DNA of 45,542 nucleotides from a virus. Location: IMG/VR virus record IMGVR_UViG_3300038548_000188, positions 1-45,542 of that record; one strand, given 5' to 3'. Made by a program: the position numbers and the translations under genes. Below the pieces are notes generated by a model. The model did no database searches, was not told the origin of the DNA, and was given only the letters and a program-made list of their open reading frames with translations. Positions 2,217-35,802 of this stretch are shown piece after piece; within the stretch, counting starts at the first letter, position 1; the number at the start of each line of letters is the position of its first letter.

Positions 2217-4406
2217 TTATGATTCCAGCGTTTGCGAACTGTTTGGCCCGGCGATCAAATCCTGGAAGCTGTTAATCAAATTCGCCAATAAATCCTGTTG
2301 TGAATTCGGGATAGTAACACCAGCGCCGTCGACCAGGACAGCCGTCACGGAAAATTGTAATAACAACGACGCCAGCAAAGCGCCCCGCGACGTCAGGGCC
2401 GGGACCAGGTTGAAGGCCATATTAACCGACGCTTGCATGGCATTAGTCGACGCGGCGGTCAGGTCCGGGCTTATTGTGAACGCCAGATCGGACGACGCGT
2501 TCAACGTTCCAGCGGCTAAAAGATCAGGGCTTAGCCCGAAGGCCATCGCCGGGGCCGCGTCGAGAGTGCCAACCGTTCGAAGGTCAGCGTTTAGATTCAT
2601 AAGGATCGCGGGCGCGGCGTCCAGTTGCCCGGTCGCCTTCAAGTCTCCGACGACGGAAAACGCCAGCGCGACAACAGCGTCCAGGGCCGGGGCGGCCCCG
2701 TCTTGAAGATCAGGCGATAAAGTAAAGACCAGCGCGGTCGCGGCGGCCAGGCTTCCGGCTGCCGTCAGATTCCCGGCGACGTTGAAAATCATGGCCGCCG
2801 AAGCGTCTAGCTTGCCCGCTGCGCTTAGACTGGCGACGACACTGAACAGCATGGCGACGGACGCGTTTGTCTGTCCACGGGCTTTAAGGTCTGCAGAGAT
2901 AGCGAACGCCAGGGCCGCCGCCGCGTCCAATTCCCCGCGCGCCCTCAAATCGGCGACGACGCCGAAGGCGATATTGATCGCGGCGTCGATCTGGCCCTTC
3001 GCCTTTAAATCGGGGACCAGGGAAAGAATCATCGCCGGGGACGCTTCCAGGGCGTCGGGAAGCGCGGCGGATTTCAGGTCAGCGACTAACGAGAATTGCA
3101 AAGCGACAGCGGCGTCGATCTGTCCTTTTGCTTTTAGATCAGCGACCAGCGCGAACGCCAGGTCGACGGCGGCCTCGATCTGGCCCCGCGCTTTCAGATC
3201 AGCGGACAACGTAAACACCAGGGCCGCCGCCGCGTCGAGTTGGCCGCGCGCTTTCAGGTCGGCGGACAAAGTGAACGCCAACGCTGCAGCGGCTTCCAGT
3301 TGACCGGCGGCTTTTAGATCAGCGACTAGCGCGATCGCCAGGGCTGCAGCGGCTTCCAGTTGACCGCGCGCGTTAAGGTCGGCGGATAGTGTAAACACCA
3401 GGGCGGCGGCGGCGTCGATTTGGCCCCGCGCTTTCAGGTCGGCGGCTAAGGTGAACGCCAGGTCGGCGGCGGCGTCCAGTTGTCCGCGCGCTTTAAGATC
3501 GGCGACAACGTCCAGCGCGATCGCGACCGTCGCGTCGAGAGTCCCGGCGGCTGTCAGATTGGCGATGACCGCGAACGCCAGGTCGACGGTCGCCGCAAGC
3601 TGGCCCTTCGCCCTTAGATCGGCGGCCAGGGTGAACAACATCGCGGGGGATGCCTCGATCGCGTCGGTAATCGGCGCGGCTTCCTTTTCGGCTTCGGTCC
3701 GCAACGACCCGTCATAGTCGCCGACGTTTGTTCCTTTTTCGGCTTCGGTCCGCATAGCGGGGTCGTAACCTGACGGAACAGAAAAATCGACAATAGCGCC
3801 ATACATCGAAGCGCCGACATCCGTGTCCGTATGGGTTGCTTCTTGCGATCCTGTTACGTCTACAAGAAGTGAAAATTTGGAGGAAACGGTGGTCGGCCCG
3901 GCACCCGGATTAAATCCAGTGATTACCGACCAGCTACCGTCGATAGCTTCGCCGCCATCACTGTCCCTGTTAACGGCTGTGCAATGCAATGCAACGAGGA
4001 TATTGTGTGATCTGGCGGGAATCAGCGCGCCGGATGGTTGCGAGTTGGTTGACGAACTTATGTTCGTTACGTTGTCGTTGGTATTTATAAGTGGTGCGGA
4101 ACCGTCCCACTCCAATTCCATCACAAGCGTATGCAGTTCCCCGACATCATTCCATCGGGGAGTTACTTCGTCTTCAGTTCCGTCCGAAAGTCTGTACCAG
4201 AGTTCAAAAGCAGTATCTCCACCATTGTTACCCACTAAAACATTGTAATCAAAATCGATCGTATCTATGTCGGTTCCATCGACATCGTTCGCAACGGCTA
4301 ATAATATTAAATTTCCAAGTGTGGCTGTTTGCGAAAAAAGTATATTTGAATTGTCTGCTGCGCCCTCGCTGCCAGCGACTACTTGAATGACATCACCGAA
4401 GGACAT
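2217..4406 (-). CDS. Large virion protein with 22 twenty-residue solenoid repeats
   Basis: A 729-residue protein in two parts. Residues 1 to about 215 look like a beta-sandwich (many short strands, WYRLSDG, SWSVITGF), comparable to carbohydrate-binding or decoration domains. Near residues 218-245 a short motif, LRTEAEK, is repeated. From about residue 250 to 695 there are 22 tandem repeats of 20 residues, typified by ADLKARGQLDAAAALAFTLS; three copies carry 2-3 extra residues. The alternating small/hydrophobic pattern predicts a beta-solenoid rod. A head or neck fibre is likely from its place between capsid and connector genes. The N-terminal part is visibly more AT-rich than the repeats. Confidence 0.75.
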   Translation of the reverse strand: MSFGDVIQVVAGSEGAADNSNILFSQTATLGNLILLAVANDVDGTDIDTIDFDYNVLVGNNGGDTAFELWYRLSDGTEDEVTPRWNDVGELHTLVMELEWDGSAPLINTNDNVTNISSSTNSQPSGALIPARSHNILVALHCTAVNRDSDGGEAIDGSWSVITGFNPGAGPTTVSSKFSLLVDVTGSQEATHTDTDVGASMYGAIVDFSVPSGYDPAMRTEAEKGTNVGDYDGSLRTEAEKEAAPITDAIEASPAMLFTLAADLRAKGQLAATVDLAFAVIANLTAAGTLDATVAIALDVVADLKARGQLDAAADLAFTLAADLKARGQIDAAAALVFTLSADLNARGQLEAAAALAIALVADLKAAGQLEAAAALAFTLSADLKARGQLDAAAALVFTLSADLKARGQIEAAVDLAFALVADLKAKGQIDAAVALQFSLVADLKSAALPDALEASPAMILSLVPDLKAKGQIDAAINIAFGVVADLRARGELDAAAALAFAISADLKARGQTNASVAMLFSVVASLSAAGKLDASAAMIFNVAGNLTAAGSLAAATALVFTLSPDLQDGAAPALDAVVALAFSVVGDLKATGQLDAAPAILMNLNADLRTVGTLDAAPAMAFGLSPDLLAAGTLNASSDLAFTISPDLTAASTNAMQASVNMAFNLVPALTSRGALLASLLLQFSVTAVLVDGAGVTIPNSQQDLLANLINSFQDLIAGPNSSQTLES
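2320..3665 (-). repeat. Tandem 60-bp coding repeat, about 22 copies
   Basis: This is the DNA counterpart of the 20-residue solenoid. The period is exactly 60 bases for most copies. Neighbouring copies in the middle are nearly identical (for example ADLKARGQ recurs many times), while copies near both ends have diverged. That pattern is expected from recent internal duplication or contraction by recombination in the centre of an array. Confidence 0.9.
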
Positions 4407-4418
4407 AGCTTGCCCCCG

Positions 4419-5240
4419 TTATACGTCGACCGCCGTCACTTCCGGCGATCCGTCCGATAAGTCCGCCGTATCGTCTTTGAAAAAGTGAAGGAAATATTTT
4501 TTACCGCTGGCCAAACCGAGCAATGTAAAGGTCCCATCGGAACCGGACGATACTAATTGCGCTACAGGCGGGCCGACGGGTTTCGGCGGGCTGGCTTCGT
4601 CGGACAGGTAGGCCGTGACCTGGACGCTGACGACGGCGGAAGTTCGATCGGCGTTTTTAGTTGTGCCTTCTATTTTGCCCGCTTTGACTACTGTCAATTT
4701 TCCGATCGCAAGTCCGATGACAGTGTTATCGCTTTGCACGACCCGGAATTCGTATTGGTCCGCGTTTAGGAAATCAGCATCCGACAGATCAATCGCCCAT
4801 TGCAATTCGAACAATTCATCGTCGTCGACGGTTTGGGTTTGTCCGTTTTCCCCCTCGATTTCATGGCTGCCAATATCGATATTAGTCCAACCTTTACCAG
4901 TGCAATCTATTTGCGAGGGAAGGTCCGAAAACTCGGCGACGATTAACGCCTGACCATTAACCAGATCGGTATCAGTCGCCCATTTGATTTCGCCAGTCGC
5001 GGCCAGGTCAGCAAAGGAACCGGCGTCGGTAATGTTGCGCCATTGGAGTTTGAACGTTGCGTCCGTGGCGATGTTCATATCGTCGCCGTCAAAACAAACC
5101 CCCAGGATCAGCCGTTCCGCTTCCGTGAATTCCTGATTCGTGTCAATTTCCCCGCGCCAGTCGCGGACATTAGCGCCCGCGCCGTCCAGGGCGAAGCGCA
5201 TGGAATTGTAACAACCGCCCGCAGCGATTAATTCAGTCAT
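4419..5240 (-). CDS. Virion structural protein with C-terminal carboxypeptidase-regulatory-like domain
   Basis: A 273-residue protein. The first 190 residues are beta-rich with repeated FKLQWRNI and FELQWAID segments, suggesting two related sandwich domains that each read L-Q-W. The final 80 residues (KIEGTTKNADRTSAVVSVQV, then GTFTLLGLASGKKYFLHFF) match the pattern of a small Ig-like domain of the carboxypeptidase regulatory type that is common in surface and phage decoration proteins. It overlaps the upstream gene by 8 bases. Its precise location on the virion is not known. Confidence 0.65.
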   Translation of the reverse strand: MTELIAAGGCYNSMRFALDGAGANVRDWRGEIDTNQEFTEAERLILGVCFDGDDMNIATDATFKLQWRNITDAGSFADLAATGEIKWATDTDLVNGQALIVAEFSDLPSQIDCTGKGWTNIDIGSHEIEGENGQTQTVDDDELFELQWAIDLSDADFLNADQYEFRVVQSDNTVIGLAIGKLTVVKAGKIEGTTKNADRTSAVVSVQVTAYLSDEASPPKPVGPPVAQLVSSGSDGTFTLLGLASGKKYFLHFFKDDTADLSDGSPEVTAVDV

Positions 5241-5547: not shown

Positions 5548-6047
5548 TTGAAACCCCGCTTATAATTATCTTCGCCGTCCGATATATGGGCCGCCGAATT
5601 CCAAATCCGGGACCCGTCGCCCGCCCAGGCTTTCGCGGTCCGGGCCTCGATCCGCATTTGTGAATAAAACGTCAACGCGTCGGAATAGTGAATTTTGATC
5701 TGCAGCGGGTTGCCGGTCGGGTATGGCGTGAAAACCAAAACGACCAGCGGACTATCGGGGTTGAAATTGATATCCCAGGCTTTGACGTTCGACTGTAATC
5801 GGGATCGGCGAAATTGCCGGGCCGGTTTGGCGGCGTCCTTTTCCTGGGCGATGGTTGCCAGGTCCCGCCATAGGCCGACCGTGTTCCCCTCGACCCGCAT
5901 AGCCATTTTCGCGGCCATGCGAATCCCGGAAAGGATTTCGAAGGCGGTCATATAGGGGACCGTGATCAGCTTATCGCCGAACCGTAAATCCAGCATATCC
6001 TGCCGGGCCTGACAGGATACGCTTTTAAGCGTTAAAACTTCGCTCAT
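5544..6047 (-). CDS. Hypothetical virion-associated protein
   Basis: The start is the ATG at 6047 that overlaps the TAA of the preceding gene (TAATG), giving 167 residues (MSEVLTLKSVSCQARQDMLD). A longer in-frame extension upstream would lie within the preceding gene and is discarded. The central segment (FEILSGIRMAAKMAMRVEG) is helical, and the C-terminal half is mixed alpha/beta. No recognised domain. Confidence 0.65.
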   Translation of the reverse strand: MSEVLTLKSVSCQARQDMLDLRFGDKLITVPYMTAFEILSGIRMAAKMAMRVEGNTVGLWRDLATIAQEKDAAKPARQFRRSRLQSNVKAWDINFNPDSPLVVLVFTPYPTGNPLQIKIHYSDALTFYSQMRIEARTAKAWAGDGSRIWNSAAHISDGEDNYKRGFK

Positions 6048-6499
6048 TAGTCGAGCGAAATATCTAGCGCGCCTGCAGCGAATTCTGGATTCACCCCGAT
6101 ATTGACAATCAGATCGGCCAAAACTTGCGCCCACATTTGCAGGACGCCCGCGCCGGATGCCGCGAAACCGATCCCGACGTCCGTGATTGTTTCAGGTGTT
6201 CCAGCGGTAGCCAGGCCAAACTGCAGCAAATTATCGTTATCAACGACGCCCGACGCGACGGTCCAGTCGCTTACGTTTCTCGCGACGGCCACTCGACCGT
6301 AGCCCGTGAAACCGGCTTCGTTATCAGTCTGCAGCGTTGACGCGTCGGTAAGCGCGTCTAGTAAATGCAACGATATATGAAAAGAATTCGCCTGTGCGGA
6401 CGGTAGAAGGCCGCCAGCGTCGCCAACGTTCGGCGCTGCGATGTTGGTGAAGATCAAATCCAATAGATCGTCTTCGAATAGGTCTGTCGCACCACTCAT
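6047..6499 (-). CDS. Phage structural protein, fibre/decoration type
   Basis: A 150-residue protein following a pattern common in small phage surface proteins: an N-terminal helix, FHISLHLLDALT, then TGYGRVAVARNVSDWTVASG, an IT-containing beta segment and a closing FAAGALDISLD. The Gly/Ala-rich strands and the G-Y-x-R-V-A-V core occur in proteins encoded next to capsid genes of many siphoviruses. It overlaps the upstream gene by four bases. Confidence 0.65.
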   Translation of the reverse strand: MSGATDLFEDDLLDLIFTNIAAPNVGDAGGLLPSAQANSFHISLHLLDALTDASTLQTDNEAGFTGYGRVAVARNVSDWTVASGVVDNDNLLQFGLATAGTPETITDVGIGFAASGAGVLQMWAQVLADLIVNIGVNPEFAAGALDISLD

Positions 6500-6771
6500 T
6501 TCCCGGACTCCGGTTTGGTTGAATCACCCGCGACGGTTTGCATTGATCCGCCGAATACGCTGATCGCTGATTCAGCGGCGTCAATGGCGGCCTTCGCGGC
6601 CTGGTTTTTAATCGCCCGAAGTCGGATGCGTTCGGCTCGTTGTTCAGCGCCCTTTTGAATCTCGGACGGTTGCGACGCGTAAATGACCGGATAATCTGGA
6701 TCGGACTTTCGTTCCAGCCTGGCCAATTGCGCCTTTTTGCGGGTTGTTCGTGCTTCGTCTGTTAGTAACAT
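6496..6771 (-). CDS. Small charged alpha-helical protein
   Basis: A 91-residue protein, very rich in Lys, Arg, Glu and Ala (TRKKAQLARLERKSD, EQRAERIRLRAIKN), predicted to be helical throughout the first 70 residues. A clear ribosome site (GAGGAG) lies 10-15 bases before the ATG. The upstream intergenic space of 44 bases carries a palindrome. Role unknown; position suggests a virion or assembly component. Confidence 0.6.
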   Translation of the reverse strand: MLLTDEARTTRKKAQLARLERKSDPDYPVIYASQPSEIQKGAEQRAERIRLRAIKNQAAKAAIDAAESAISVFGGSMQTVAGDSTKPESGK

Positions 6772-6806
6772 TTTGCTTTGCTCCTCTGATTACGATTTGA
6801 AATATA

Positions 6807-6817
6807 TCACAGTGATT
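6807..6817. promoter_or_regulatory. Perfect short palindrome ATCACAGTGAT between two virion genes
   Basis: An 11-base palindrome, five-base arms around a central A, at the stop of the 223-residue gene and ahead of the 91-residue gene. A related core (ACTGTGATA) occurs after the major capsid stop (about 8077-8085) and in the leader at 25266-25274. It could be an operator or a weak stem; nothing in the sequence decides between them. Confidence 0.35.
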
Positions 6818-7487
6818 AAGAAAAAGCCGACCCGCCAATTTCAATAAGCGACGTTTTAGGCCCGCGAAAATAAACTATACAGGTGGCGTTCGGGGTTCCG
6901 ATCGCGCGGGTAATTCGGATTTGATGATCGACCCGAAATAATTTTCGGATATTAGCCGGGCCGCCTAAAAAAAAGCCTTCGGCGTTAACGTAAGTTATCC
7001 CGTCGGTTACGTCTTCGACGCCAAACCCGCCCGCTGCAACGGTCGTATTCTCAAGTCGAAGGGCGATTTTTGCATCGGCGGGCAGCGTCAGGATATTAGC
7101 CGACGATCCGCCGGCGGCGGTCGCGCCAAAACTAAAAAGCTGTGACAACGTGACGTCGACTGTCATCGTATTATCCCCGCCGCCGGTTTGCGCGACGGTC
7201 GCAGCCCCGATCCCTGGACCGCTGCCGGTATAGGCCCCGGCGATCTGGATCGCGACCGCTGTGACGAATACGCCGTTGGTAGCGACGACATAACCCCGGC
7301 CCTGGATCGAAAAGGTTCCGCCAGTGATCAGGAATTCGTCGCCGACGGTATATCCCTGGCCGGTGACAGTAGCGGCCAGGGTAATAATTCGAAACGGGGG
7401 CGGTTCGATTCCCGCCAGGGCGAAAGCCTTTTGATCCTGTTTTTTACGACGACGTTTCCGGGCGTAATATTGCGACGCGTGGGTCAT
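6816..7487 (-). CDS. Beta-rich structural protein with GxGYxVGD module
   Basis: A 223-residue protein with a very basic N-terminus (YYARKRRRKKQDQK). Residues about 43-95 contain GQGYTVGDEFLITGG, a following strand pair and IAGAYTGSGPG, a module that also appears in the 430-residue tail-region protein at 39534-40826. The C-terminal half is a separate beta domain ending in IVYFRGPKTSLIEIGG. The arrangement fits a capsid decoration or surface protein; the basic N-terminus could contact DNA or the capsid. Confidence 0.6.
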   Translation of the reverse strand: MTHASQYYARKRRRKKQDQKAFALAGIEPPPFRIITLAATVTGQGYTVGDEFLITGGTFSIQGRGYVVATNGVFVTAVAIQIAGAYTGSGPGIGAATVAQTGGGDNTMTVDVTLSQLFSFGATAAGGSSANILTLPADAKIALRLENTTVAAGGFGVEDVTDGITYVNAEGFFLGGPANIRKLFRVDHQIRITRAIGTPNATCIVYFRGPKTSLIEIGGSAFS

Positions 7488-15035: not shown

Positions 15036-15419
15036 CTAAATCAATACTACTCTTATTTTATACTGCCATTCAACAAACGCGCGTCGAAGGCGGGCCGTGT
15101 CCGTGTCGTGACCCTTCGCATCCTCGACGATGACGGCCCCGGTCGCGTTGATTTTGTAGCGAAAATCCGCCTTGTAACTGCAGCGCCGACCGTTCGGATA
15201 TCCTTGCGATCGAATCTTAACCGGATCGGCGGCGGTCCCCAGGCGGAAGCGGGGTTGAAGTTCTAAGTCACTGATTTCGCCCGCGCGTTCCAACAGCTTT
15301 AAATCGGAATAGCGGCGGGCTTCGTGACCGGAATCGAATTTGATCCCGTCGACGATCGTTTTTACCGCCCCGAAATTACGTCGTCGGCTTTCGCCAAGTC
15401 TAGTCCGGCGGCGGGTCAT
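15036..15419 (-). CDS. DUF1064 PD-(D/E)XK-like endonuclease
   Basis: A 127-residue protein with FDSGHEARRYSDLKLLERAGEI, then LELQPRFRL, YKADFRYKI and a strand IVEDAKGHDT. That is the DUF1064 pattern, in which E of the first helix, D of the ADF strand and the E-D-x-K strand build a PD-(D/E)XK active site. Roles proposed for the family are structure-specific DNA cleavage in replication, recombination or packaging. It is directly upstream of the terminase genes and overlaps the collagen-like gene by 20 bases. Confidence 0.75.
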   Translation of the reverse strand: MTRRRTRLGESRRRNFGAVKTIVDGIKFDSGHEARRYSDLKLLERAGEISDLELQPRFRLGTAADPVKIRSQGYPNGRRCSYKADFRYKINATGAVIVEDAKGHDTDTARLRRAFVEWQYKIRVVLI

Positions 15420-16038
15420 CGCGCTCGATCAGTTTGTCGACCAGGCGTTTCAAAATGTCGTTGACGTCGGTCCGGACCCTGCGCTTTTTCTGTTTTTCCT
15501 GTTCGGTTTTTTCGGGCGGGTCGGGTTGGGCGGCGACGATGTTAATTTTTGCCGGTTCAATTGAGGGCGGTTCCGGTGCCGGGACGACGAACGTCACCTC
15601 CGGGGCCGGGACGACGATCGGTTCGGGCTTCGCTGGCCAGTCGATCAACGTGACCGCGACGACGTCGCCATATTGTTCGATTATGATTTGCGGATAACCC
15701 TTCGGAACCAGCATTCGCGCCGGTTGCGTGGCCGCTGTTTGGTTTTGCGTTTCCAAACATTCCCACGGTTTACAGTCCGCGCCTTCGCCTTCGCCGCCGC
15801 CCTGACCGCCAACGCCGCCAGGATCGCCAGGACCGTCCCCGTCCCGACCGTCACTTCCATCGGGTCCGGCTGGCCCGGCTGGCCCGGCTGGACCGGCTGG
15901 CCCTGCAGGACCGGCGGGTCCTTCGTTGCCTTCGTGTCCGTGGCCATGCCCGTGTCCGTGTCCTTTCTTTGCCAGGGCTGGCGTCATCGCCAACAACAAG
16001 ACCAAGAACAGGATCAGCGCCCGCACGTTTAAAACCAA
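15400..16038 (-). CDS. Exported His-rich collagen-like protein
   Basis: A 212-residue protein of uncertain start (TTG at 16038, or GTG at 16026, neither with a good ribosome site). Residues 6-23 form a Sec signal peptide ending AMTPALA, probably cut before KK. Residues 26-35 are alternating Gly-His (HGHGHGHGHE), then about 10 Gly-X-Y triplets including six GPA units, a Gly/Glu linker, a small domain with two Cys (89, 94), and a Pro/Glu-rich and basic C-terminus. It follows the spanins in the lysis cassette. A periplasmic or envelope role is inferred; function unknown. Confidence 0.7.
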   Translation of the reverse strand: MVLNVRALILFLVLLLAMTPALAKKGHGHGHGHGHEGNEGPAGPAGPAGPAGPAGPAGPDGSDGRDGDGPGDPGGVGGQGGGEGEGADCKPWECLETQNQTAATQPARMLVPKGYPQIIIEQYGDVVAVTLIDWPAKPEPIVVPAPEVTFVVPAPEPPSIEPAKINIVAAQPDPPEKTEQEKQKKRRVRTDVNDILKRLVDKLIERDDPPPD

Positions 16039-16148
16039 ACCGACAGCTTCGCCCGGACCCAGGCGTCGACCGCTTTGACCTTTGGAATCTTATCCCAGGC
16101 GGGCGAAGCCCAACCCAGGACCAGCCCAATAATTAAAATGATAAACAT
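16029..16148 (-). CDS. 39-residue single-span membrane peptide
   Basis: A short reading frame from ATG at 16148 to TAA at 16029. It starts MFIILIIGLVLGWASPAW, a hydrophobic helix, and ends with a short amphipathic stretch (VKAVDAWVRAKLSVWF). Codon use matches the neighbours. It overlaps the start of the collagen-like gene by 10 bases, which would allow translational coupling. Tiny membrane proteins of this form are common in lysis regions; no function is assigned. Confidence 0.55.
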   Translation of the reverse strand: MFIILIIGLVLGWASPAWDKIPKVKAVDAWVRAKLSVWF

Positions 16149-16157
16149 ATCCACAAG

Positions 16158-16364
16158 TTATCCCCCTAATCGTTGCCAGCCGGACGCCGGGGTCGACGCT
16201 TCACTGTGCAGTTTATGATCCAGGGCCGTCGCCTTCGGTAAAACAACGGACGCCAGGTATTCGATCGCCTGGCCGACCGCGTCGGCGTGACCGTGTTGAA
16301 TCGCTGAAAAAGTGCGGGCGTCATCCGGAAAACTGCCCGTCGTTTTAATCGTAATCTGTCCCAT
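16158..16364 (-). CDS. Small hypothetical protein
   Basis: A 68-residue protein, MGQITIKTTGSFPDDARTFS, starting at the ATG overlapping the TGA of the preceding gene (TGATG); a longer in-frame start inside that gene is discarded. It has a helical centre (HADAVGQAIEYLASVVLP) and no recognised motif. Confidence 0.6.
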   Translation of the reverse strand: MGQITIKTTGSFPDDARTFSAIQHGHADAVGQAIEYLASVVLPKATALDHKLHSEASTPASGWQRLGG

Positions 16365-16657
16365 CAGTTCCCGATCCCTTCGGCTTCCGGGTCCGTATCC
16401 ATCCAATCGCGACCCGTTTCCGGGGGCGGTAGATTTTCCAGGACCGACGACATTCGCTTCGACGCCTCGACCCGTCCGTCGACCGTCAGGGTTGCGCCGT
16501 CACGGACGTCCAGGAACCCGCCAGCGGCTTCGCTGCCCTCGCAAAGGTCCAGCGGTTGCCCGCTATTGAAGCGGGCCAGCCCGCGCGTGTCGGCGTATAC
16601 GATCCGCCATTTTTTACCCATTCGCTGGACTTGCAGTTTCGGTATTTCGTTGGACAT
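16364..16657 (-). CDS. Small hypothetical protein
   Basis: A 97-residue acidic protein starting MSNEIPKLQVQRMGKKWRIV. The N-terminal half is a small beta sheet, and the C-terminus is acidic (WMDTDPEAEG). The start is the ATG overlapping the stop of the membrane protein gene upstream. Unrecognised family. Confidence 0.6.
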   Translation of the reverse strand: MSNEIPKLQVQRMGKKWRIVYADTRGLARFNSGQPLDLCEGSEAAGGFLDVRDGATLTVDGRVEASKRMSSVLENLPPPETGRDWMDTDPEAEGIGN

Positions 16658-16872: not shown

Positions 16873-17208
16873 TTATTCCGTTTTTATTTTGTCATTGTGG
16901 TCCGTGATGCATTTGACCAGGGTCCCGCGAATGGCGCGCTGTTGGGTCATATAGGCCCGCATCGCTTGCAGGTTTTCCGCCAGGGCGGCGTAAAGGTCAG
17001 GCGTGAACCAATACCCCCAAACCCGGTTCGGACCCAGGGCGACGGTCGGGGGCGTGTCCTTTAGGTCCAGGGCGTCGGGCTTGTTATGGACGGCCCCGCA
17101 AATGACCAGGACGGGTTCCGGCTTGATCACTATGTCGGCAGGCTTCGGGGATAGCAGTGAACAACCAGGAAGGGCCAGCAGGAACAACAGAGTCACGCCC
17201 GCTTTCAC
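16873..17208 (-). CDS. Outer-membrane lipoprotein spanin (o-spanin, Rz1-like)
   Basis: From the GTG at 17208, overlapping the i-spanin stop (GTGA), the protein is 111 residues: MKAGVTLLFLLALPGCSLLS, a textbook lipoprotein signal with lipobox LPGC and Cys 16 as the lipidated residue. A TTG start ten codons upstream is the alternative. The mature part contains a further C-x-n-C pair and a helical C-terminus that would contact the i-spanin across the periplasm. It acts in the last lysis step, fusion of inner and outer membranes. It is larger than lambda Rz1. Confidence 0.75.
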   Translation of the reverse strand: MKAGVTLLFLLALPGCSLLSPKPADIVIKPEPVLVICGAVHNKPDALDLKDTPPTVALGPNRVWGYWFTPDLYAALAENLQAMRAYMTQQRAIRGTLVKCITDHNDKIKTE

Positions 17209-17582
17209 TGACGCGATTCCGACTCGATTTCGTCCCAAACCTTCGTCGTCGCTTTCCGGGCCATGCGTTCCAATAGCTTCGGCTTGGCGGCGGTCAGCGT
17301 TTCAAGACGTCGACGATCTTCCAGGACTTCGGTCGTCGTTGCTTCTAGGTCGCGGGCGGCCTGCAGTTCCGTTTGAAGTTTTTCCTGGCGTTCACTTTCC
17401 TTTACCAGGTCGCTTTCCAATTGCTCGACCCTGGCGTTCGCCGTTTCGGCGGATATCTTTGACGCGACGGCGTTCTGTTCGGCGACGACCCTGGCGTCGA
17501 TCTGGCCGTTGACGATCCAGGCCCCGGCCCCGATCAGGCCGCCCCCCAGGACAACGACCAGGATAATAATTTGAATGTTAAT
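17205..17582 (-). CDS. Inner-membrane spanin (i-spanin, Rz-like) with apparent ATT start
   Basis: The clear part is a periplasmic coiled coil (VEQLESDLVKESERQEKLQT...), ending at 17205. In the same frame upstream there is a hydrophobic helix (IIILVVVLGGGLIGAG), exactly what an i-spanin needs, but no ATG, GTG or TTG precedes it before a stop. The best candidate is ATT at 17580-17582, seven bases after GAGGG and overlapping the TAA of the 37-residue gene (ATTAA), giving 125 residues. The first standard start in frame (TTG at 17420) would remove the membrane anchor. Confidence 0.65.
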   Translation of the reverse strand: MNIQIIILVVVLGGGLIGAGAWIVNGQIDARVVAEQNAVASKISAETANARVEQLESDLVKESERQEKLQTELQAARDLEATTTEVLEDRRRLETLTAAKPKLLERMARKATTKVWDEIESESRQ

Positions 17583-17691
17583 TGTTCCGCCCTCGAGGCC
17601 GGTCAGTCTTGCGCCGTGAAACTGTCCGATTGTAATCGGTCAACCATTGTTCGCGGGTTTGGTCCTGGGGTTTGTTTCGTCGTTCGATCAT
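17578..17691 (-). CDS. 37-residue basic peptide between holin and spanin
   Basis: A short frame from ATG 17691, overlapping the holin-candidate stop (ATGA), to TAA at 17578. It reads MIERRNKPQDQTREQWLTDY and then a basic tail (RRKTDRPRGRNN). It fills the gap precisely and its stop overlaps the proposed ATT start of the i-spanin, so it may serve as a coupling leader as well as, or instead of, encoding a working peptide. Confidence 0.55.
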   Translation of the reverse strand: MIERRNKPQDQTREQWLTDYNRTVSRRKTDRPRGRNN

Positions 17692-17930
17692 GGCGTCGTC
17701 CCGTTCATATATTTATCGATCAGCTTTCCCAGGACGATCGTGATCACGGTCAGGATTGCGGCGGGGAACCCGGCCAGGGCCAACGCGACCGCCTGGTTGT
17801 CGACCGTTTGCCAGTTGAAAGTGATAAACCAATCGACGACATAAAACCAGGCATAAAAGAAAAACAGCGAAAATGCCCCGGTCAGCAGCCGGGGCCAAAC
17901 GCGCCACTTATTGAAATCTTCGGGGGTCAT
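17688..17930 (-). CDS. Holin candidate
   Basis: An 80-residue protein with two hydrophobic helices (about 13-37, PRLLTGAFSLFFFYAWFYVV, and 46-70, VALALAGFPAAILTVITIVL) and a short polar N-terminus MTPEDFNKWRVW, ending in a short charged tail. Size, topology and position directly upstream of the spanins make it the best holin in the cassette. It overlaps the upstream gene by four bases. Confidence 0.65.
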   Translation of the reverse strand: MTPEDFNKWRVWPRLLTGAFSLFFFYAWFYVVDWFITFNWQTVDNQAVALALAGFPAAILTVITIVLGKLIDKYMNGTTP

Positions 17931-31230: not shown

Positions 31231-31860
31231 TTATGAATTGATCCAGGTATTCGCCGCGACCTTCACGATCCGCAAGCTGGCCCGGTCGGTTGTGATCGCC
31301 GCGATCCCCCTGGTCGTCAGGCCGGTCAATGTGAACGTGACGTTATTCGTCCCGGAATTATTGACGATATGAAAATGGAAGCCGATCGGAAGGTCGTCGT
31401 TTACGTCCTGGGGGATCGTGACGTCGCGGGCCGCCGCCGCCGTGTCCAATTCAATCGACGCGTTGTAATGATCGCGGCTTATATCGACGTCGGCGGCGAC
31501 CGTCAGGACGTCGTCCCGGACTTGCCATTCAACCCCGTCATAAACCCGGAACTTCCGAATATTGCGATCGTAAACCCGGAAGCCCTCGACCGGCGAAACG
31601 ATAATCCAGGTCGACGTCGACGCGTTGAACACGGCCAGGGCGCGCGCGTTGCCCGTCCAGGCCGCCCCGGACGGCGCGGTCCCGATGATATAAGCGTCGG
31701 AAATGGACCCGGCTGGCTGCGCGTTGCGTTCGTCTATGACCGTTCCTAAAGCGAAAGCGTCGGTAATCACGGCGAATCCGTCATAACCCGCTTTCCAGCC
31801 ATCGTCCCCGGCGTTGAAATCGTAATTGATCCCCAGGGTTAAAAGTGCAGTTTGTGGCAT
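31231..31860 (-). CDS. DUF2793-type tail protein
   Basis: A 209-residue protein. The middle part (GSISDAYIIGTAPSGAAWTG, then WIIVSPVEGFRVYDRNIRKF and YDGVEWQ) follows the DUF2793 pattern of phage tail fibre modules, in which a repeated G-D-x-Y-I-V-G and a W-x-F/I-x-x-P-x-x-G motif form a beta-fold. The C-terminal part is another beta domain (GFHFHIVNNSGTNNVTFTLT). Likely attached to the tail tip and involved in host surface recognition. Confidence 0.7.
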   Translation of the reverse strand: MPQTALLTLGINYDFNAGDDGWKAGYDGFAVITDAFALGTVIDERNAQPAGSISDAYIIGTAPSGAAWTGNARALAVFNASTSTWIIVSPVEGFRVYDRNIRKFRVYDGVEWQVRDDVLTVAADVDISRDHYNASIELDTAAAARDVTIPQDVNDDLPIGFHFHIVNNSGTNNVTFTLTGLTTRGIAAITTDRASLRIVKVAANTWINS

Positions 31861-31869
31861 GGTCGCCCC

Positions 31870-34800
31870 CTATTGTTCAAAGTTTTCAATATCCAATAAT
31901 AAACCATAACTGGCCGACGCGCTAAACGGGAATGACAAATTCGCGACGTCCCGTTCGATGTCCATTGATGTCACATAGGTCGCCCCGCCGGGTTCCCGTA
32001 ATGCCGTGTTCAGCGTCGCGGTATAAAGTGCGGACGCGTCGATCTGAATTTTCAGCCTGGAATAGATGTCGTCACGATACGGGGTATCGGCGGCGTCGGG
32101 GGCGGTCGCGATTTCGGTATAGATAACGCCGTCCAGATCGATCCGGTATTCCTGGGCGACTATGACGGGTTGAAAACCCGACGAACTGGGTTCCGCTTCC
32201 GATACAAAGGCGACGTTTATAGTTTGTTTCAAGCCGCCGCCGAGCGTTGCAGGCGTGGCCGTCGCGACTTCGGTCCCTAGCAATTTGACCGGGCCGAACA
32301 GGCCGTCGAAAAATGTATTTTTGGGGGCCGCGTCGTAACTGTTCGCGACGATGATTTCGAAGTTTTGACGCATTCGGATTTCGACGCCAGGCCGGTCGGT
32401 ATCTATACCGCCAACGGGAACGGGTTCGTATCGCGCCCAATTAACCGCCGCGATGTAATTGTTCAGGGTCGTCGCCTGCAGCCTTTGAAGGACCGACAAC
32501 AGACTGGAATCGAAGCCCGCGATCGGGAAGTCCGGTTCGCCGTCACGAAGCGGAAGGTCGCGGCTGACGGCCTGGGTCCCCGGTGCGACCAGGCGACCCC
32601 CCCATTCGATCCCTTTCAAAAACAACCCGCCGTCGGGAAGCTGTCGTTTTGCTTCCAGGGTAATCCCCCGGACTTGAATATCGACCTGGTTGGCCGTTGG
32701 CGCGGCGGCGTTGTAACTAATAAGGGTTTGCGGGGCCAGGACATCGGTCGACGGCGTCGTCGCTGGATCGCCTTCCCATAAGTCCAGGTGAAGTATTTGT
32801 TGATCACCTTGAACCGCCCCGAAATGTTCCTGTATTAATCCGATACTACTGGTCGCCGTATTATTCTGAACCGATCCGCCCAGGGACCCGAATGACGTCG
32901 ATATCGTCAGGACGTTCCCGTCGACGACGGTTTGGATTTTGATCGGATCGAAGTCGGCGGCAATTTTGGCCGCGATGTCGACCAGGTAATCGGCGACGCT
33001 GGACTGGACTGATCCGTCGATGAAATAGTTTTCGTTTTGGCTGATAGTCTGACCCAGTTCCAGGAACGCGATTCGGACGAACAGATCGTCGCGGCTATCC
33101 AGGACCCCGGTCGCCGTGATCCGGAATATCGATTGACTGGTCACGCCAGGGATAGGATCGACGGTCGCGGGCGGGTCGCCTTTAGCCAACAGAATCCCGT
33201 CGTTGTCGCCGCCGAACTTTTCGTCCATTTTGTAGCCGAAGCCGTAAATATTGAACGGCCCGATCGTCCAGATTTGCGATTCCCCGTTGGCCGATACGCT
33301 GGACAATTCCGCCTGATATAGGTCCGTGATCGTGTCGTCGGCGAAGCCCGCCGCGTTATAAGCCCCGATTGTCGCGCCTGCAGGTATGCCAGAAACGTCC
33401 AGGACGACCGTGTCGGCCCCGCCTGGGTCTTCGATGATCCGGACACGAAACGCGGTTCCGGCCTCCTGCGTGACGTGTGGGTCGTCCCAGGCGGTCGCCC
33501 TGGGTTGGGTGAACTTATCGGACCCGGCCCAGGTCAGGCCCAACAGGCCGACCAGTTGCGCGCCGGACGGGCTGCCAGCGTCGACCGGGAAAAACCCCCC
33601 GCCAGGGGCCGCCGGATTGACTTCGATGTCGCGCGGGGGATAAGCGCGGCCCGCGCGCCCGACCGTCGTCAATGACTGGACGATCGTCGACGCGAACAGG
33701 AAAGTATCGAAGGTTGTAAAAAGCTGATTCCGGACCTTCCAGTTCAGCGATAGGTCGCCTTCGGGTTCGGCGTTGGCCAGCCCGGTCCCATAGGTGAAAA
33801 ACCAAACCTGCGAATTGTCGACGTGTTCGGCGGGCAGCGTATCCAGCGCGCCCCGGACCAGGTTGAAGATCGTCCAGGACCCGCCGCCGCTGTCCGTGAT
33901 ATCGCTGAACAGGATTATTTCGTCGTCGATCAAGCAACCGTTTGTCAGGGCTTCAAGGGCCGCCGAATCGATATCGGCCAGCCGGACCAGGTCGACGGCG
34001 TTGTCGACAATGAAACCGACCGCGTCCTGGAAGCCGTTGGTCTGCCCGCGATCCAGCGCCCCGACCAGCAAACCGAACGGGGTCGTCCCGTTGGTTGATG
34101 CCGGACTAATAACGCTACCTTCGACCGGATCACTGGGGACGGTTGGGAAGTCGGCGACTTCGACGAAACGGTTATATCCGATTTCCTGGGTCCCGGATCG
34201 GACGACCAGGGTTCCGACCTGAATCCCGACCGTGTTCGCGCCGGTCAGCGCCAGGTCCGTCAACACGAACGGCAATTCGAACAGCAGTTCGAACAGGGCC
34301 GGAAGGGCCAACGTCGACGGCGGCGTCCAGTTTGTATCCGGCGGATCGGCGAACGTGCCAGCGGACGCGGCGAAAATGTCTTCGGCGAAGTCGATCGTAA
34401 TTTTTCCTTTCAACAGGTTCCCGCGATTGATCTTCGTGATCCGGATCGGCAACCGGACCAGGCCCAGGCGCGGCCAGGTCCATTCCCGCACGTCACCAGG
34501 TTTTAAATCGAATTGCGTCCGGTTTACAGTAAGCCGCCCGGTCGCGATCGGATACGATAACAAGCGCAGTTCGCGCCATGCCAGGGAATTCGCCAGGGTC
34601 GCATTGTTCACGCCGGGGAATTTCATTTCGGACAGGTTGACGTTTTGAACGATGTCGATGTTCGCCGAATCCTGGGCCATAGCGTAGGACGGTTTAAACG
34701 ATTTGCGGGCGTCGCTAAATTGGACGCTGACGACGTTCGACGTCGAATTCCAGGAAGGCCGTCGGAATGACAATACTTCGCCGACGTTGGATTCGTCCAA

Positions 34801-35802
34801 CAGCGGAAGCGTTCCGGGCGTGTAGTCGTCGCGGATCAAGGTGAAGCTGAAAACCCCCGTGATCGGTTCCTGGACCAGGACGCCGTCGACCTGTTCTTCG
34901 ATTAGCCGGATCATGGCCGCGACTTCTTGGACCCGGTCCCATATGAAAGCGAAGCCATTACCTTCGGTTTTCAATGTCGCCGCGATCGCGCGCAGCGTCA
35001 CGACGTCGACCTGGATCGCGCCCAGGTTTAAACCCCATTCTGGATTCGTCAGAATTTCGAAAATAAGGTTCATCGGATTCGCGCCGTCGTCGATCAGTTC
35101 GTCGCCTGGTTGCAACGTGGCCAGGTCCAGGCCGTCGGGGACGCGGGCTATTTCGAATTCAAAGTTCCGAAGGTTCGGGCTGTTCCCGATCCAGCCCTGT
35201 TTGATAATGATGTAACTGGTCCCCCTATAGGCGGGCGTCGGGGTTTGGAATCCGGCCAGGTAAGGGTCGACGCTTTGCAATTGCGACCCGCTGTAAAACG
35301 CGCAATTCATTAGCAGGCCGCCCTGGCCTGGCGATTTCCTTTCGCCGAAATGATTTTTCACGTCGATCGTGAAAGCGGTCCCGGTTCCGGACGGTAAAAT
35401 CGCGGCTTCGGCGTTCGGTCCTTCCGGCCCCCAAACGTAGGAATCATCGTTTCGGATATTGATCAACTGATCCAGGGGACCGTCCAGGGGGCCGCGACAA
35501 AGGGCCAGCTGGACGCCCAAATAATATTCGAAGCCTATGGTCACGTCTTCCGAACTGAACAACCCGGTCGACACGTCTTGCTCGATCTTTTCGGTTTTCA
35601 AGTCGCCATACCAAACGACGTTCGGGCCTTTCATGTTGACCCGCCCGAATATGATCGGGATCGGTCGGCCTTCGGTCGCGGTCGGGACCTGGAAGTCGCC
35701 CAGGGTTGCAGGCTTCGCGTTTTCCAGGTTTGGTTTCGGCCTTAATAATTCAGTGATCAGGAAGGTCGCGACATAGACCAGCAACATAGTTAAAAACGGC
35801 AT
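31870..35802 (-). CDS. Central tail tip protein (gpJ-like), candidate receptor-binding protein
   Basis: A 1310-residue protein, the largest gene. The N-terminus has a hydrophobic segment (MPFLTMLLVYVATFLITELL) followed by PIPIIFGRVNMKGPNVVWYG, typical of tail-tip proteins. Residues about 300-480 (ITGVFSFTLIRDDYTPGTLP ... FDLKPGDVREWTWPRLGL) match Phage-tail_3-type hub domains. The remaining 800 residues are beta-rich with fibronectin-like stretches, the part most likely to contact the host. It overlaps the hub gene upstream by one base. Confidence 0.78.
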   Translation of the reverse strand: MPFLTMLLVYVATFLITELLRPKPNLENAKPATLGDFQVPTATEGRPIPIIFGRVNMKGPNVVWYGDLKTEKIEQDVSTGLFSSEDVTIGFEYYLGVQLALCRGPLDGPLDQLINIRNDDSYVWGPEGPNAEAAILPSGTGTAFTIDVKNHFGERKSPGQGGLLMNCAFYSGSQLQSVDPYLAGFQTPTPAYRGTSYIIIKQGWIGNSPNLRNFEFEIARVPDGLDLATLQPGDELIDDGANPMNLIFEILTNPEWGLNLGAIQVDVVTLRAIAATLKTEGNGFAFIWDRVQEVAAMIRLIEEQVDGVLVQEPITGVFSFTLIRDDYTPGTLPLLDESNVGEVLSFRRPSWNSTSNVVSVQFSDARKSFKPSYAMAQDSANIDIVQNVNLSEMKFPGVNNATLANSLAWRELRLLSYPIATGRLTVNRTQFDLKPGDVREWTWPRLGLVRLPIRITKINRGNLLKGKITIDFAEDIFAASAGTFADPPDTNWTPPSTLALPALFELLFELPFVLTDLALTGANTVGIQVGTLVVRSGTQEIGYNRFVEVADFPTVPSDPVEGSVISPASTNGTTPFGLLVGALDRGQTNGFQDAVGFIVDNAVDLVRLADIDSAALEALTNGCLIDDEIILFSDITDSGGGSWTIFNLVRGALDTLPAEHVDNSQVWFFTYGTGLANAEPEGDLSLNWKVRNQLFTTFDTFLFASTIVQSLTTVGRAGRAYPPRDIEVNPAAPGGGFFPVDAGSPSGAQLVGLLGLTWAGSDKFTQPRATAWDDPHVTQEAGTAFRVRIIEDPGGADTVVLDVSGIPAGATIGAYNAAGFADDTITDLYQAELSSVSANGESQIWTIGPFNIYGFGYKMDEKFGGDNDGILLAKGDPPATVDPIPGVTSQSIFRITATGVLDSRDDLFVRIAFLELGQTISQNENYFIDGSVQSSVADYLVDIAAKIAADFDPIKIQTVVDGNVLTISTSFGSLGGSVQNNTATSSIGLIQEHFGAVQGDQQILHLDLWEGDPATTPSTDVLAPQTLISYNAAAPTANQVDIQVRGITLEAKRQLPDGGLFLKGIEWGGRLVAPGTQAVSRDLPLRDGEPDFPIAGFDSSLLSVLQRLQATTLNNYIAAVNWARYEPVPVGGIDTDRPGVEIRMRQNFEIIVANSYDAAPKNTFFDGLFGPVKLLGTEVATATPATLGGGLKQTINVAFVSEAEPSSSGFQPVIVAQEYRIDLDGVIYTEIATAPDAADTPYRDDIYSRLKIQIDASALYTATLNTALREPGGATYVTSMDIERDVANLSFPFSASASYGLLLDIENFEQ

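Follow-up and report, generated by a model that had tools for sequence, protein, structure and literature searches.

In phages, collagen-like stretches are familiar as the stalks of virion fibres. The EPclA and EPclB proteins of E. coli O157:H7 prophages are of the tail type, long and trimeric, and contain PfN, PCoil and PfC domains; a signal peptide is not mentioned in the text of the paper that describes them (PMC3368898). In the literature that was searched, no collagen-like protein was found in a lysis cassette or as an exported phage protein. Here we describe a phage gene whose collagen-like product is predicted to be exported and which lies near lysis genes, a combination that a first-pass annotation had called unusual and that is indeed unusual within what was searched. 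The window, i.e., the whole stretch of DNA that was analysed, is the entire IMG/VR virus record IMGVR_UViG_3300038548_000188 (45,542 bases). We propose, with a rough probability of 0.4, that the product is a Sec-exported periplasmic protein, made together with the lysis genes and probably oligomeric, that would act as an accessory envelope-disruption factor at lysis.

The phage and the genomic context of the gene

The phage is an uncultured, tailed siphovirus. The nearest relatives of its TerL are Rhizobium phages (40%), its major head protein is closest to Nipunavirus-type phages of Pseudomonas and Xanthomonas (57%), and its tail hub to Variovorax and Pseudomonas phages. The host is probably a Gram-negative bacterium, since the phage carries an i-spanin and an o-spanin with a lipobox, and probably a pseudomonadote. 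Between the major head protein and connector genes, positions 2217-5240 (minus strand) encode proteins of 729 and 273 aa without a match in PHROGs or Pfam; comparably large genes are absent from this place in Nipunavirus JG054.

The collagen-like gene was found in three related phages only, all uncultured and including the present one. Record IMGVR_UViG_3300049097_000028 (L001) carries a full-length relative that is 70% identical, while IMGVR_UViG_3300008517_000120 (L006) carries a partial relative that is 63% identical. L001 and contig 000015 (L053) of metagenome 3300049097 look like adjoining pieces of one phage, as one stops inside TerS and the other starts just before TerL.

The minus-strand gene order is: DUF5675/phrog_1501 protein, 148-aa membrane and coiled-coil protein, 80-aa membrane protein, i-spanin, o-spanin, 71-aa membrane protein, ~97-aa protein, 82-aa protein, tiny membrane ORF, collagen-like gene, nuclease, TerS (phrog_4044) and TerL. 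The main features are:

17688-17930, minus strand: 80-aa membrane protein, holin candidate (hydropathy only)
17205-17582, minus strand: i-spanin with N-terminal TM segment and coiled coil (phrog_739, E 4.7e-4)
16873-17208, minus strand: candidate o-spanin with lipobox ALPGC, its GTG start overlapping the i-spanin stop (motif and arrangement)
16029-16154, minus strand: tiny ORF of 41 aa with one hydrophobic segment and a good ribosome site
15400-16026, minus strand: gene of the predicted exported collagen-like protein (208 aa with the GTG start, 212 aa with the TTG at 16038)
15036-15419, minus strand: DUF1064/phrog_190 nuclease, Holliday junction resolvase-type, with a 20-base overlap with the collagen-like gene

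This order places the collagen-like gene between lysis and packaging genes. The first-pass annotation had put it between spanin and nuclease genes, and it does lie between both, but not directly beside the spanins, as several small ORFs intervene. No family match was found for the candidate o-spanin, and the i-spanin and o-spanin as queries retrieved the same contig only. None of the codons ATG, GTG and TTG occurs upstream of the TM segment in the i-spanin frame; its start is likely an ATT (17580-17582, minus strand) after a GAGGGCGG site, where L001 has GTG, or else the sequence contains an error. The 82-aa ORF (16158-16406, minus strand) is absent from the syntenic L001, and an 80-aa membrane protein of L001 (3122-3364) has no counterpart in this phage.

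The ORF at 15400-16038 (minus strand) exists as first described, but its TTG start gave way to the GTG at 16026, which is preferred because it aligns with the only start available in L001. In the present phage the tiny ORF stops 2 bases before this GTG, and in L001 the two overlap. The tiny ORF is conserved in L001. Because it has a ribosome site, while neither copy of the collagen-like gene has one of its own, the collagen-like gene is probably translated by coupling to it.

Domain organization of the predicted protein

The protein divides into the following parts:

15970-16026, minus strand: signal peptide MRALILFLVLLLAMTPALA, with a predicted SPase I cut after ALA (hydropathy and motif)
15931-15969, minus strand: mature N-terminus KKGHGHGHGHGHE, with five His
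15832-15930, minus strand: collagen-like stretch of 11 triplets (GNE, six GPA, GPD, GSD, GRD, GDG)
15757-15774, minus strand: CX4C pair (CKPWEC), the sole cysteines of the protein, conserved in three relatives
15637-15714, minus strand: conserved block MLVPKGYPQIIIEQYGDVVAVTLIDW, probably beta strands (dN/dS 0.12)
15400-15558, minus strand: C-terminal segment beginning at EPAKIN; it contains a KKRRVR patch and an amphipathic helix, DVNDILKRLVDKLI, and its end is acidic

The signal peptide, which had been claimed before, has a 13-residue hydrophobic core (mean hydropathy 3.0) leading into TPALA, and at the cleavage junction MRALILFLVLLLAMTPALA is followed by KKG. By inspection and hydropathy, n, h and c regions with an AXA-type site are present in both full-length relatives. 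Export by Sec and cleavage after ALA are likely on these features, and the predicted cut would leave 189 residues. The mature protein is acidic (pI 4.88; 19 K+R vs 30 D+E), and beyond the signal the highest 19-residue hydropathy is 1.0, with no second TM segment. Alternatively, the signal may stay uncleaved, leaving the protein anchored in the inner membrane; the Pro-rich and collagen-like portion would then reach across the periplasm in the manner of an additional i-spanin or a TonB-like arm. The strongly hydrophobic N-terminus and the Pro-rich, periplasmic-type stretch are consistent with such an anchor; however, the hydrophobic core is short and is followed in both full-length relatives by a textbook cleavage site (TPALA here, TPGLA in L001), which makes anchoring unlikely.

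The reported Gly-His run, KKGHGHGHGHGHEG, follows the signal peptide and comprises five Gly-His units. The G-X-Y stretch, first put at about ten triplets, is an unbroken run of 11-12, six of them GPA. When the residues of the mature protein were shuffled 20,000 times, neither a G-X-Y run of at least 11 nor H(GH)3 arose. The codons for GPA and Gly-His vary, and the run is therefore not simply a fresh DNA repeat. A Gly-rich linker separates the G-X-Y stretch from the CX4C pair; there are exactly two cysteines, as had been stated, and they are kept in all three relatives. The conserved block includes IIIEQYGDVVAVTLIDW and is followed by a Pro-rich stretch before the KKRRVR patch. This patch is all that is left of the basic C-terminus described at first, since the segment has a pI of 6.6 here and 5.1 in L001 and ends in RDDPPPD.

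History of the spanin block

Compared with L001, the spanin and holin genes (16873-17930) have a dS of 0.21-0.28, while their neighbours have 0.56-0.74, with the collagen-like gene, nuclease and DUF5675 gene at 0.65-0.74. That the spanin/holin block is so much more alike than its neighbours is a sign of its recent exchange, and the block was probably exchanged separately from the collagen-like gene; the case for a tight partnership between the collagen-like protein and the spanins is therefore weakened.

The lack of a historical tie between the gene and the spanin block favours an action on the envelope that serves some other end, such as superinfection block, metal handling or stress protection of the infected cell, and a soluble, predicted exported protein with a Gly-His run would suit it too. 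Yet the gene shares an operon with lysis and packaging genes, and exclusion genes tend to be expressed either early or by a prophage. We consider such a purpose doubtful.

Family searches and rejected identities

Outside the collagen-like stretch, there were no matches in Pfam, PHROGs or the PDB: the C-terminal half of the three members shares no significant PHROG or Pfam family, and a PDB profile search with this half returned nothing significant. The Pfam Collagen family (PF01391) gave no match at E up to 1, and the 45,542-base record encodes no other G-X-Y protein.

PHROG tail-fibre families match via the GPA repeat only (best E 2.8e-7), as would be expected if the protein were, like other collagen-like proteins of phages, a fibre or decoration of the virion. 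However, the C-terminal half alone matches no PHROG tail-fibre family, a signal peptide is present and is kept in L001, a tail-attachment domain is lacking, and the tail hub and fibre genes are located elsewhere, at 31231-35802. A virion protein is thus improbable, in agreement with the initial view that this is not a tail fibre. An EPclA-type tail fibre is disfavoured because the N-terminus is a signal peptide, not a virion attachment domain, and no fibre homology was found outside the repeat.

The collagen-like protein is not a spanin because it lacks a lipobox, a second TM segment and a coiled-coil ectodomain. As an o-spanin or u-spanin it fails at the ALA/KK junction, which has no lipobox cysteine, the first cysteines being the CX4C pair; a u-spanin would also have a C-terminal transmembrane domain, which is missing here (hydropathy at most 1.0 after the signal). 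An i-spanin was rejected since the ectodomain is Gly/Pro-rich, not coiled coil, and the phage has its own i-spanin. Disruptins are small and strongly cationic, and this identity was discarded because the mature protein is acidic (pI 4.88).

Conservation and selection

All three members share the GPA stretch, both cysteines, the C-terminal half and the short overlap with the nuclease gene. L001, the sole relative covering the Gly-His run, additionally keeps this run and the signal peptide (TPGLA site). Between the present gene and that of L001, dS is 0.67 and dN 0.20, and the ratio of 0.29 indicates purifying selection; by region, dN/dS is 0.09 in the signal peptide and 0.12 in the beta block. 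At the sensitivity used, no relatives were found by tblastn in INPHARED phages and plasmids (PLSDB), nor in GTDB genome contigs searched with the C-terminal alignment and with TerL. A search of other phages for HGH followed by GPAGPAGP returned 11 stretches, with both motifs in frame in L001 only. The nuclease as query retrieved many phages; the collagen-like gene was present in close relatives only, and the other phages matched had no Gly-His or long G-X-Y run.

The reality of the gene is well supported, as judged from the 70% protein identity to L001, the dN/dS of 0.29 and indels that are all in frame. The low-complexity core of the protein might suggest a spurious ORF or a compositional artefact of a GC-rich repeat, but this is refuted by the in-frame indels, the dN/dS and a non-repetitive C-terminal half conserved in three phages. 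An alternative-frame ORF at 15681-15947 (minus strand), which has a hydrophobic segment and is open in L001 too, was rejected as a hidden gene because codon resampling opens the frame equally far in 58% (this phage) and 44% (L001) of cases.

Proposed function

An accessory role in lysis is our leading guess because the gene sits with the spanins. Its operon holds the i-spanin, the lipobox o-spanin and membrane proteins, and the tail hub and fibre genes are separate. Further points in favour are the same-operon conservation in L001 of signal, Gly-His run, GPA repeat, CX4C pair and C-terminal block; the retention in L006 of the GPA repeat, CX4C pair, C-terminal half and nuclease overlap; purifying selection; the lack of a second TM segment after the signal; and the lack of another G-X-Y protein in the record. 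Against this role, the protein has no characterised relative, the spanin and holin genes differ in dS from the collagen-like gene (0.21-0.28 vs 0.67), and the gene sits at the margin of the lysis genes, adjoining packaging genes. Moreover, a triple helix of eleven unhydroxylated triplets may be unstable unless a strong trimer domain supports it.

The collagen-like protein would probably be made late in infection, its translation coupled to the tiny membrane-protein ORF. Export via Sec and a cut by signal peptidase I would yield a 189-residue acidic periplasmic protein, whose chains would probably be brought together, perhaps as a trimer, by the conserved C-terminal block and the helix, and may be locked by the CX4C pair. 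The G-X-Y stretch would then form a short stiff rod or an extended spacer carrying the Gly-His N-terminus; in collagen geometry a triplet spans ~0.86 nm, and eleven triplets would make a rod of ~9-10 nm. The Gly-His N-terminus might touch the envelope or bind metal. At lysis, the protein would assist envelope disruption alongside the two-component spanins, not replacing them. A bolder version is a long shot: the protein would be a soluble trimeric rod, tethered by its Gly-His end, that acts together with the two spanins in breaching the outer membrane, and would represent a third class of envelope-spanning lysis factors, one of collagen-like type. If a conserved collagen-like protein encoded next to lysis genes is indeed exported, phages would also employ the collagen fold within the host envelope, and the holin-endolysin-spanin scheme would gain a component that is directly testable in E. 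coli.

Comparison with known systems

Like EPclA and EPclB, the present protein has a phage-encoded G-X-Y stretch with flanking domains; unlike them, it has a signal peptide, 11 triplets and an unrelated C-terminal part. With two-component and unimolecular spanins (PMC6139136) it shares neighbouring genes, a predicted envelope location and a proline-rich periplasmic part, whereas it lacks their lipobox, C-terminal TM segment and coiled-coil ectodomain, and an i-/o-spanin pair is already there. The streptococcal collagen-like adhesin Scl2/SclB (NF038329) likewise combines export, predicted here, with a G-X-Y repeat, but the match is confined to the repeat and reaches 15 bits against a cut-off of 325. 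An ORF in IMG/VR contig 3300047160_005481 (L040) also has a signal-like N-terminal segment followed by GPA/GPP triplets; in contrast to the present protein, it lacks a Gly-His run, is found next to baseplate and tail-collar genes and is otherwise unrelated. On that contig, itself unrelated, a collagen-like ORF (PF01391) occupies 5945-6946 (minus strand) near the tail-collar and baseplate genes, and another, whose N-terminus is signal-like, stands at the end of this locus. What is new here is the exported, Gly-His, lysis-side form of a phage collagen-like protein.
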